A program made the translations under genes and the position numbers. A stretch of 45,900 nt of DNA from Firmicutes bacterium HGW-Firmicutes-21 (GTDB lineage Bacteria; Bacillota; Clostridia; Oscillospirales; CAG-382), in contig PGZT01000004.1 in assembly GCA_002841455.1 (NCBI GenBank), positions 1-45,900 on the forward strand, read 5' to 3'. The notes beneath the pieces were generated by a model. It searched no databases, had not been told where the DNA came from, and worked only from the letters and a program-made list of their open reading frames with translations. Positions 41,312 through 44,907 of this stretch are shown in pieces (within the stretch, counting starts at the first letter, position 1; every line of letters begins with the position of its first letter).

Positions 41312-42172
41312 TTATTTTCCCGCAACCATCCTGTACTGGTCGTAATAAAACGACTCCTTATATCCGATACTGCGGTAGACCTTGTTTGAGTATTCATTGG
41401 CGCAATCCGCATATAAAGCGCAGTATTTCCAACCCTCGTTAATCAGCTTTTGGGATAACGAAGCGACGCAAGCGGTGCTGTAGCTCTTACCCCGAAGATG
41501 AGGCGGTGTATATACCTGACCGATAAAGATGCAGTCGGTAACCTGCCTTACACTTGCGGCAACCGAGACGGGCATATTATCCTCCCATATGTATAACTGT
41601 CCGCCGTTAATCAGGTTTTGAGCTGTTTTTATACCGAAATTAATGTCATACCCACCGAGGTTACAAGCGGGAACAAAATCCGCAACCCAATAAGGAAGGA
41701 AATGCATATCGGTACTTGTTGCGTTACGGAAATTACCGTTTGGAAGCGTTAATTTGTTAACCTTTTCGAGAATATACAGCACCAGACATTCATTGTTTTC
41801 AAAGCTCTTGTTTATCTTTCTTCCGTATATATCGCAAAAGCTCTTTGCAAGTGCCTTTTCGGTAAAAATAAAATCAACCTGTTTGCCGTTTTCGATAAGC
41901 GAATCGGTAAAGAACTCTAAAACCGTATCGTTTCTGATATTATCGGTTTCATACATAACCATAGGATGTGGCATACAACGAATTGCAGTCAAAAGGATTT
42001 TTCCGTCATCGTCCTTGACCGTTGCCATTATAAAATCCGAATTAATTCCTCCGGCGGCAAGGGCTATGTTTATGTTTTTTAACAGCAGATTGTTCTGTAT
42101 CTCATGCTTATTCAAAACATCAGTTACTTCATCGGCAAAAACCTTTGCTGTATTGTATAGTGTAAATATCAT
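41312..42172 (-). CDS. GNAT acetyltransferase with N-terminal extension
   Basis: 286 residues. The C-terminal half has the GNAT acetyl-CoA segment FIGQVYTPPHLRGKSYSTAC and LYADCANEYSNKVYRSIGYK. The first 140 residues are a second, degenerate GNAT-like half (as in two-domain acetyltransferases). It follows the 167-residue GNAT gene with a 3-base gap, so both are in one operon. Substrate unknown. Confidence 0.85.
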   Translation of the reverse strand: MIFTLYNTAKVFADEVTDVLNKHEIQNNLLLKNINIALAAGGINSDFIMATVKDDDGKILLTAIRCMPHPMVMYETDNIRNDTVLEFFTDSLIENGKQVDFIFTEKALAKSFCDIYGRKINKSFENNECLVLYILEKVNKLTLPNGNFRNATSTDMHFLPYWVADFVPACNLGGYDINFGIKTAQNLINGGQLYIWEDNMPVSVAASVRQVTDCIFIGQVYTPPHLRGKSYSTACVASLSQKLINEGWKYCALYADCANEYSNKVYRSIGYKESFYYDQYRMVAGK

Positions 42173-42175
42173 TAA

Positions 42176-42679
42176 TTAAACCTCCGTTTCCATAAATCCT
42201 ACCGTAAACGGCAGGTGAGGGAACAACATTGTCCCTGTATGTACAAAGCCGTTTTTTATATACCAGTTCTTCAGCTTTGTGTTTTCCTCTATTATGCCAA
42301 GGGTTATTTTCTTACCGCCAAGGTGTCTTGCAACAGTCTTACAATGCTCTATCAGAGCGCTGCCTATTCCGGAATGTCGGTATTCAGGCAGCACAGCGAG
42401 ATTATGTATTTCATATGCAACATCATCTTTTTTTGATAGTGAAACATAACCTACCAGCTCTGTACCTACAAAATAACCAAACATAGGGCATTTGCTCTCG
42501 AAAACGGCTCGCAGCCTTTCCATTTTCATAAAGCTTGTATGCTTGGAGCAGTTTTCCTCTGTCAAGCCGAATTCCTGCGCCACCGTCGCAAAGCTCTTGT
42601 GTATCACATAAAGGCAGTCCGTCAGGTCCTTTTCAGCTATTGTTTTAATTACACGGTCGGATAAATCTATCGTTTTCAT
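42176..42679 (-). CDS. GNAT family N-acetyltransferase
   Basis: 167 residues. Acetyl-CoA motif LAVLPEYRHSGIGSALIEHC and LGIIEENTKLKNWYIKNGFV. GGAGCTGCATA precedes the ATG at 42679. It lies 22 bases downstream of a terminator that ends a small upstream gene, so expression may depend on read-through from the promoter at 42969. Confidence 0.88.
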   Translation of the reverse strand: MKTIDLSDRVIKTIAEKDLTDCLYVIHKSFATVAQEFGLTEENCSKHTSFMKMERLRAVFESKCPMFGYFVGTELVGYVSLSKKDDVAYEIHNLAVLPEYRHSGIGSALIEHCKTVARHLGGKKITLGIIEENTKLKNWYIKNGFVHTGTMLFPHLPFTVGFMETEV

Positions 42680-42701: not shown

Positions 42702-42763
42702 CAAAAAAAGCGGTGTAAGCTTTTCATATGCGAACATTATTCGCACCGAACACCAAAACCGCT
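42702..42763 (-). terminator. Terminator/attenuator between the small gene and the GNAT operon
   Basis: AGCGGT (42758-42763) pairs with ACCGCT (42709-42714), enclosing TGCGAA/TTCGCA, followed by seven T on the minus strand. GGTGT/ACACC can pair alternatively, so two folds compete. Confidence 0.65.
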
Positions 42764-42795
42764 ATAGCATATTCAATAATAATGTTATATTATAC

Positions 42796-42936
42796 TCAAA
42801 ACATATTATCCTTGAAATATAGAGGTCTCAGCCCGTCACCTGTTTGCACAACTCTTTTTGTAAAGAAAATAGTTCTGTATTGAGATACGGACATATGGGC
42901 GGTATTATTTGTTCTGTAAAGTTTTGAGAAATACAT
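42796..42936 (-). CDS. Putative 46-residue small protein with its own promoter and terminator
   Basis: The frame begins with ATG at 42936, with GGGAGG nine bases upstream, and encodes MYFSKLYRTNNTAHMSVSQY, then RTIFFTKRVVQTGDGLRPLY, then FKDNMF. It is bounded by a consensus promoter (42969-42997) and a terminator (42702-42763), so it looks like a self-contained transcription unit of about 260 bases. It is basic and has no signal peptide or membrane helix. No family was recognised. It could be a real small protein or a leader frame that regulates the GNAT genes behind the terminator. Confidence 0.6.
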   Translation of the reverse strand: MYFSKLYRTNNTAHMSVSQYRTIFFTKRVVQTGDGLRPLYFKDNMF

Positions 42937-42968
42937 CGCTGTAGCCTCCCGAAAAGTAAATTTTACAA

Positions 42969-42997
42969 ATTATATCACGAGATTTATATTTTGTCAA
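42969..42997 (-). promoter_or_regulatory. Perfect consensus promoter of the small gene and GNAT operon
   Basis: TTGACA (42992-42997), 17 bases, TATAAT (42969-42974) on the minus strand; both hexamers match the sigma-A consensus exactly. Confidence 0.85.
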
Positions 42998-43101: not shown

Positions 43102-44028
43102 ATGATTCTCTCCGCTTCCCGACGTACAGATATACCCTGCTATTATTCCGAATGGTTTATAAACCGTCTGAATGCGGGATATGTCCTGACACGGAACCCG
43201 TTCAACCATGCGCAACTGAGCAAAATACCTCTTTCACCCGAGGTTGTGGATTGTATTGTGTTCTGGACAAAGGATGCCAAAAACATTCTGCCGCACCTGA
43301 GAACCATTGACGAAATGGACTATAATTATTATTTTCAATTCACGCTGACACCATATGACCATATAATTGAGAAAAACCTGCGTGATAAAGCGGATATTGA
43401 AAAAACCTTTATAGTTCTAAGTGAACAGATTGGTAAGGAGCGTGTGATATGGCGATATGACCCCATTATTTTTAATGATACGCTGACTGTAGCCTACCAC
43501 AAAGCGCAGTTTAAGCGGTTGTGCGAAAAGCTCTCGCCATATACCGAGGGTGTTATAATCAGCTTTGTTGATGTTTACGAAAAACTAAAAACCAATCTTA
43601 TCCGTGAGATAACAGGTGATGAAATAGAGGAGCTTGGCTCTTTTATCGGAAAAACAGCAAGAGAATACGGATTAGCCGCAAAGGCGTGCTGCGAAAGTAC
43701 AGACCTGACAGTCTTTGGAATCGAACGGGCGAGCTGCATAGATAAAGCGGCAATTGAGAAGGTTTGCGGCTCTTCGCTCGCCATATCCTCCGACAAAAAT
43801 CAACGAGATGGCTGCGGTTGTATGGAGAGCATTGACATCGGCGTATATAACACCTGTCTTAATGGTTGTGTGTATTGTTACGCCAACGATAACCCTGCAA
43901 CCACTTTGCGGCGGTATAATTCCCACAACCCGAACAGCGAACTGCTCATCGGCACGGCTACAGACGGCGAAAGGATAACAGACCGCAAAGTAAAAGCGCA
44001 TAGACAAGGACAAATTAATTTATTTTAG
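43102..44028 (+). CDS. DUF1848 protein with C-terminal cysteine cluster
   Basis: 308 residues. The N-terminus ILSASRRTDIPCYYSEWFIN and WTKDAKNILPHL are DUF1848 landmarks. The C-terminal CGCMESIDIGVYNTCLNGCV followed by YCYAN provides a C-x3-C-x2-C-like set suited to a 4Fe-4S cluster, related to radical SAM and spore photolyase-type folds. Reaction unknown. An AAGGAG site precedes the ATG. Followed by the ANT(6)-like gene after 21 bases. Confidence 0.85.
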   Translation: MILSASRRTDIPCYYSEWFINRLNAGYVLTRNPFNHAQLSKIPLSPEVVDCIVFWTKDAKNILPHLRTIDEMDYNYYFQFTLTPYDHIIEKNLRDKADIEKTFIVLSEQIGKERVIWRYDPIIFNDTLTVAYHKAQFKRLCEKLSPYTEGVIISFVDVYEKLKTNLIREITGDEIEELGSFIGKTAREYGLAAKACCESTDLTVFGIERASCIDKAAIEKVCGSSLAISSDKNQRDGCGCMESIDIGVYNTCLNGCVYCYANDNPATTLRRYNSHNPNSELLIGTATDGERITDRKVKAHRQGQINLF

Positions 44029-44049: not shown

Positions 44050-44907
44050 ATGCGTACGGAAAAAGAGATGTTCGATTTAATACTTGGTATTGCAAAAGCG
44101 GACGAGCGTGTTAAGGCAGTCCTTATGGTTGGTTCTCGTGCTAACCCCAACGCCCCCAAAGATATATATCAAGATTATGATATTACTTATTTTGTTAGGG
44201 ATGTATCGCCTTTTTATAATAATTTGGATTGGATTGAACAAAATTTTGGAAAACCTATGATTATGCAGTTACCGGAAAATATGTCGCATCCTCTGCTTGC
44301 ACCGGAAGGAGACGGTCATTTTATTTATTTAATGATTTTTGAGGACGGAAACAGAATAGATTTAAGTATTGAATATACACCTTACTTTGATGACGGAGAG
44401 CCTGCAATCGTACTTTTAGACAAGGATGGTTTCCTGCCAAATATACCCATACCAACAGATAAACACTGGTATATCAAACCTCCGACAAAGGAGTTATTTT
44501 CGGACTGTTGTAACGAATTTTGGTGGAGCTTAAATAATGTCGGAAAAGGTATTGCAAGAGATGAGTTACCATATGTTATGGAAATGTTCAACCATTATAT
44601 CCGGGATATGCTTAACCAAATGGTTGACTGGTATATCGGAATCAAAACGAATTTTTCCGTTTCCTCCGGAAAAATGGGTAAGTATTATAAGAGACATCTT
44701 TCGTCACATCTTTACGATATGTATGCAAAAACCTATTCAGACAGTGATTACGACAATCTTTGGGCGGCGGTATTCACCGCTTGCGAGCTGTTCAGAGTAA
44801 TTGCGACATCTGTTGCGGAACACTTTTCTTTTACATACAACAAGGATGAAGAAATCGGTATAATGAAATATTTGAATTGGGTAAAAGTACAACAAACATC
44901 TCCGTAA
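44050..44907 (+). CDS. Aminoglycoside 6-adenylyltransferase-like protein (ANT(6)/AadE family)
   Basis: 285 residues, the usual length of the family. Active-site motif GSRANPNAPKDIYQDYDITY holds the two aspartates of the nucleotidyl-transfer site, and RIDLSIEY the third. The C-terminal helical domain (YIRDMLNQMVDWYIGIKTNF, KYYKRHLSSHLYDMYAKTYS) matches AadE-like proteins. It would adenylate streptomycin if a true resistance enzyme, but many chromosomal homologues lack proof of activity. AGGAGGTAAACAA precedes the ATG. Confidence 0.85.
   Translation: MRTEKEMFDLILGIAKADERVKAVLMVGSRANPNAPKDIYQDYDITYFVRDVSPFYNNLDWIEQNFGKPMIMQLPENMSHPLLAPEGDGHFIYLMIFEDGNRIDLSIEYTPYFDDGEPAIVLLDKDGFLPNIPIPTDKHWYIKPPTKELFSDCCNEFWWSLNNVGKGIARDELPYVMEMFNHYIRDMLNQMVDWYIGIKTNFSVSSGKMGKYYKRHLSSHLYDMYAKTYSDSDYDNLWAAVFTACELFRVIATSVAEHFSFTYNKDEEIGIMKYLNWVKVQQTSP

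Follow-up and report, generated by a model that had tools for sequence, protein, structure and literature searches.

In the window, i.e., the whole stretch of 45,900 nucleotides analysed here from Firmicutes bacterium HGW-Firmicutes-21, positions 42997-42703 of the minus strand very probably constitute a ribosome-mediated transcription attenuator of an operon of two GNAT acetyltransferases, with a 46-codon open reading frame (ORF) as its translated sensor. By comparison, the architecture of this leader is conserved and helices 1:2, 2:3 and 3:4 covary in relatives. An earlier note on this DNA had hesitated between an independent small gene and a regulatory leader governing the two acetyltransferases through competing hairpins, and it is with the latter that the comparative evidence agrees.

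The transcription unit and its predicted switch

The succession of promoter, GGGAGG site, 46-codon frame and terminator, previously proposed as a full transcription unit, is confirmed on the minus strand, where three further segments (regions 1 to 3) are predicted to pair alternatively:

42969..42997 (-), promoter, with TTGACA (42997-42992), a 17-nt spacer and TATAAT (42974-42969), 12/12 match
42945..42950 (-), Shine-Dalgarno sequence (SD) GGGAGG of the leader ORF, 8 nt 5' of the ATG
42938..42949 (-), region 1, GGAGGCUACAGC in the SD/start region, with region 2 as predicted partner (GAGG..CAGC with GCUG..CCUC)
42796..42936 (-), leader ORF, 46 codons, stop included (ATG at 42936, stop at 42798-42796)
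42818..42837 (-), region 2, late codons GACGGGCTGAGACCTCTATA (D34-Y40), predicted to pair with region 1 or, via ACCUCUAUA (42826-42818), with region 3
42758..42766 (-), region 3, UAUAGCGGU, overlapping the terminator 5' arm and pairing with region 2 over 8/9 bp as predicted antiterminator
42703..42763 (-), intrinsic terminator, with outer stem AGCGGU/ACCGCU, inner hairpin TGCGAA..TTCGCA and U-run 42709-42703
42176..42679 (-), GNAT acetyltransferase 1, 167 aa, Pfam Acetyltransf_1 at 1.1e-16, the presumed controlled gene
41312..42172 (-), GNAT acetyltransferase 2, 286 aa, same operon, GNAT_acetyltran at 1.6e-6, over the curated cut-off

The promoter, which also carries a TG immediately 5' of its -10 element, is the sole 12/12 site within 4.4 kb, about 0.1 such exact sites being expected per window by chance (arithmetic assuming ~62% A+T). 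The terminator, whose outer stem extends from 42763 to 42709, has a folding energy of -22.1 kcal/mol (z -2.6, equalled by 3/200 shuffles) and was overlooked by a simple terminator scan because its loop is long and branched. From the U-run to the first GNAT start codon there are only 23 nt, leaving therefore no room for a separate GNAT promoter there; the SD of GNAT 1 is GGAG at 42690-42687, and GNAT 2 starts 3 nt past the GNAT 1 stop. The window thus presents a layout of promoter, SD-preceded short ORF, intrinsic terminator and then a gene devoid of its own promoter. Pfam identifies both downstream genes as GNAT acetyltransferases, in keeping with the earlier note, and GNAT 1 falls short of the curated cut-offs of all NCBIfam resistance families. 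On the other strand, a divergent gene for a DUF1848 protein (43102-44028, +) adjoins the leader, and a divergent homologue of ANT(6)-type streptomycin adenylyltransferases lies nearby (44050-44907, +; Adenyl_transf 5.8e-106), under the curated NCBIfam cut-offs.

The leader peptide is, as had been remarked, basic (about +5 when K/R are counted against D/E) and unfamiliar, being without relatives in Pfam, NCBIfam, PHROGs, plasmid or phage records and matching only itself in its own genome. In the proposed mechanism, the ORF is presumably translated in the window leader and stalling would be the trigger of the attenuator. With normal translation, ribosomes would pass over region 2, the 2:3 pairing would not form, the terminator would, and transcription would end short of the GNAT genes. 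In the absence of ribosomes, region 2 would pair with region 1, the start site of the leader itself, and once more the terminator would form. With an early stall, e.g., of a ribosome bound by a translation inhibitor, region 1 would be covered and region 2 free to pair with region 3, thereby disrupting the terminator and allowing expression of the acetyltransferases. Such a switch would most probably permit a gut bacterium to make two enzymes of a drug-modifying type during ribosome stalling alone.

A family of leaders with competing pairings

The entry point to a leader family was a weak peptide match (E 0.046) in a different genus of the host's family, at a locus (L065/L221/L242) comprising promoter, SD, 39-codon ORF with a GDGL motif, terminator, methyltransferase gene and then a GNAT 1 homologue. 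An unbiased scan for the order SD-ORF, terminator and gene upstream of GNAT 1 homologues gave further leaders of the same layout in other genomes, with GLYCRT, GDGLLP and the like as end motifs, to which the wider family adds GLALSYP. Operons with GNAT 1 homologues are often headed by such an attenuator unit in other genomes, and in one case (L249) it stands directly ahead of the GNAT 1 homologue. A first covariance model, built from four members, detected the leader family in 20/63 genomes belonging to the host's family; a second one, built from 26 members, detected it in 31/245 genomes of the order; in a class-wide sample, it was present in only 2/111 genomes, one of the two from the same order. 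The order SD-ORF-terminator is kept in 47 relatives, where class I methyltransferases and GNATs predominate among the first genes under the leader, with kinase-like proteins, phosphorylases and one S51 peptidase besides. In an unusual instance (L273, G023:C13:58841-59019), a 22-codon leader (GDGLLLLYS) precedes a methionyl-tRNA-synthetase-like gene, identified by eye.

Other searches were less productive. With the DNA of the whole leader, 197 relatives returned only promoter-like or terminator-like fragments, one of which (L012) was later recognised as a family member; viral contigs gave no match; a two-sequence peptide profile recovered its own two members and weak unrelated matches only; and the pattern GGAGG-gap-GGYGACGGGCT returned the two loci already known, its other matches being mostly GC-rich and due to chance. 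A candidate in the window's own genome (G000:C10, L321) has only a terminator in common with the family and was left out of the counts. The idea that the leader simply travels with GNAT 1 was also discarded, as GNAT 1 homologues in L020-L024 carry a different conserved leader. The latter, found in rumen Clostridia MAGs (L020:340-470, L021:610-735, L022:955-1080 and L024:1037-1160), consists of GGCAGGTGGACAAAATGACAATG...TTTTGTCC, an ORF of 18-21 codons (MTMNLNFRNRRAVLSVCD) and a terminator AGGCATCTCC..GGAGGTGCCT. Its conservation is strong in spite of a different first downstream gene in each case, and Rfam has no match for it.

In family alignments, the start region (e.g., UACGACAAUG) pairs with the late codons CAUUGUCGUA, while late codons GGCUUGUAUUGUC alternatively pair with the terminator 5' arm GACGGUGCAAGUC, which is why the leaders would end in motifs of the GLYCRT and GDGLLP types. 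In the 26-member alignment, helix 1:2 and the terminator covary, 23 of 31 pairs being changed on both sides, in an alignment fitted to these helices, which favours them. The antiterminator 2:3, unused in the fitting, is paired in 90.4% of cells, whereas sliding it along gives no more than 47%; both partners have changed in 16 cells, and 0/500 shuffles reach this level of pairing, bearing in mind that cells are sequences and not independent events and that, the rows being related, this shuffle count is not a probability. When masking by a ribosome was simulated for 24 members, the mean pairing of region 3 with the ORF was 0.69 with region 1 covered, 0.51 with no ribosome and 0.45 with a ribosome at the stop codon.

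Conserved competing helices and a conserved terminator would also be found in a ligand-binding riboswitch, or in any other untranslated RNA leader where the ORF is incidental. However, neither the window nor its relatives match Rfam at the gathering score, even divergent members retain the SD, the start codon and an ORF that runs through region 2 as far as its stop, and helix 1:2 is formed with the start site itself, all of which renders an untranslated leader extremely unlikely. A TPP riboswitch, considered for a CTGAGA resemblance, was dropped for want of Rfam support, and the Rfam near-misses are chance matches. Given the conserved SD-preceded short ORF, the window unit is, as far as sequence comparison can tell, a translated RNA leader and not an untranslated one. 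The earlier expectation that an RNA leader would keep its hairpins but not its frame consequently holds in part, i.e., for the late segment, which is read in two frames, but not for the SD-preceded short ORF, which is itself conserved.

These two frames are the main ones in which region 2 is read among 47 leaders of 22-46 codons. The identical RNA GGGCTTACATTGTCGTACC encodes GLHCRT in L263 and GLTLSYP in L277, and likewise GGGCTTGTATTGTCGTACC encodes GLYCRT in L246 and GLVLSYP in L262; since the same RNA is read in two frames, it is, from these alignments, the RNA and not the peptide that the family keeps in region 2. Elsewhere, the leader peptides diverge strongly while the pairings covary, with the exception of a mid-ORF motif, N-[TN]-x-x-[MQ], found in 18/47 leaders, where third codon positions vary freely; its counterpart in the window is NNTAHM (codons 10-15). 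This motif may be selected as a peptide and be a possible stall site.

Such variation mainly at third codon positions is also what peptide selection would give in an independent small-protein gene equipped with a promoter and terminator of its own, in which case only leaky read-through would serve the GNATs, and the complete unit, the SD, the basic product and the strong terminator would suit that reading as well. Nonetheless, the lack of homologues in protein-family libraries, plasmids and phages, the strong divergence of the peptides alongside covarying pairings, and the identical late RNA read in two frames in relatives, where a conserved small protein would keep its peptide in one, make it very unlikely. 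The claim of an independent 46-residue protein gene is therefore not upheld, all the more so as a profile of 46 family leader peptides misses the window peptide, and the attenuator remains the preferred reading.

The window leader as a divergent member

Direct alignment supports the window leader as a divergent member of the family, though the models do not prove it. Among seven direct local alignments in all, the one with L278 scored 71 (shuffle maximum 55) and the one with L316 scored 57 (shuffle maximum 56), each with 0/1000 dinucleotide shuffles as good; those with L241 and L242 were equalled by 3/1000 and 28/1000, respectively, and the one with L246 was not significant. With model R2, the best match in the window is exactly this leader, at a score that is not significant (13.2 bits, E 1.2); with model R3, built from leaders nearer to that of the window, it comes third, behind two spurious AT-rich matches, and again without significance (19.9 bits, E 0.13). 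L316 (G000:C57:4625-4885) is a second family leader in the window's own genome, ahead of a class I methyltransferase (R3 E 0.001), and its terminator has in common with that of the window the inner TGCGA...TCGCA hairpin and the 3' arm GCTTACACCG. In a genome of the same genus, L317 (G001:C11:76334-76567) is a candidate member (R3 E 0.06) also ahead of a methyltransferase, with the leader MKLFFGMIDNGYKPADASVVFWGLSRLLSFRGR; PADAS and SFRGR are common to L317 and L316.

The mutually exclusive terminator and antiterminator, which covary in the family, are present in the window only modestly above chance. Helix 1:2, whose homologue covaries in relatives and which in the window contains the SD rather than the AUG, reaches -16.6 kcal/mol with 98/2000 shuffles equally good (~0.05), and the extended duplex of ACCUCUAUA with UAUAGCGGU reaches -21.7 kcal/mol with 50/2000 (~0.025). 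The masking simulation gave 0.62, 0.61 and 0.61 for the window, i.e., no change.

Inducing signal, novelty and known attenuators

As regards the signal, a drug would be the usual cause of stalling, and drug induction is favoured because the published leader attenuators of this layout, namely those of cplR, hflXr and tlrB, are all induced by ribosome-targeting drugs (PMC10201436, PMC6310831, PMC6851288). The GNATs might then detoxify the inducing drug; the downstream genes of the family fit the modification of harmful compounds and prove no resistance. The same attenuator could instead sense a shortage of an amino acid or charged tRNA, as its layout is that of classical attenuation, Asn codons are rather frequent in its leaders and L273 precedes its methionyl-tRNA-synthetase-like gene. 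Yet the leaders lack a common run of one regulatory codon, and methyltransferases, GNATs, kinase-like proteins and phosphorylases are no biosynthetic pathway, so that such a shortage is an unlikely signal in comparison with a drug.

None of Rfam, Pfam and NCBIfam contains the leader family, which is widespread. No description of it was found in an open-access library, nor did a keyword search of two large structured-RNA surveys that include uORF candidates show it. While the leader-ORF attenuator is a kind already known, this family, with a long ORF that pairs with the site where it starts and a switch strand read in two frames, appears new within the literature consulted. We give a little better than an even chance to the broader proposal of an undescribed, order-wide class of attenuator RNA in gut and rumen Clostridia, where the ORF would act as a sensor of ribosome traffic, with a switch strand read in two frames, and would place scattered modifying enzymes (methyltransferases, acetyltransferases, kinase-like proteins and phosphorylases) under one signal, blocked translation. 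If true, a computable RNA signature would flag the genes that gut Clostridia induce when ribosomes are blocked, the unannotated methyltransferases and acetyltransferases beneath it would become candidate inducible resistance genes, and the reading of one conserved strand in two frames would offer a clean test of leader ORFs as peptides vs sensors of ribosome position.

Among known systems, the bmrB leader of Bacillus subtilis bmrCD, with an ORF of about 54 codons, controls its downstream operon by ribosome-mediated transcription attenuation; it is likened to the GNAT leader for its layout, and heads an ABC exporter, unlike the latter. The cplR leader of Clostridioides difficile (uORF MRI), likewise comparable in layout, is transcribed constitutively with premature termination and induced by ribosome stalling; it resembles the present family in its 5' hairpin sequestering the uORF, its alternative terminator and antiterminator and its occurrence in Clostridia, but its uORF has 3 codons vs 22-46, it heads an ABCF gene, and its SD lies inside the terminator whereas the GNAT SD comes after it (PMC10201436). 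In Listeria monocytogenes, rli80, the leader of hflXr (lmo0762), similarly combines a small ORF, an alternative terminator/antiterminator and ribosome-dependent attenuation with a resistance gene downstream, but its ORF of 14 aa bears an RLR stall motif, whereas no such motif is common to the family leaders, and the downstream gene is another one (PMC6310831). The tlrB (yxjB) leader of B. subtilis also places a leader peptide and a terminator ahead of a gene for a modifying enzyme, stalling relieving termination, and differs in that its leader, of 9 aa, carries an RYR motif at the C-terminus, and that NusG pausing and a further hairpin sequestering the SD come into play (PMC6851288). In both cplR and tlrB, mutation of the start codon is reported to abolish regulation (PMC10201436, PMC6851288). 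Unlike tlrB, the family leaders would build their 2:3 antiterminator from the late codons of the ORF itself.
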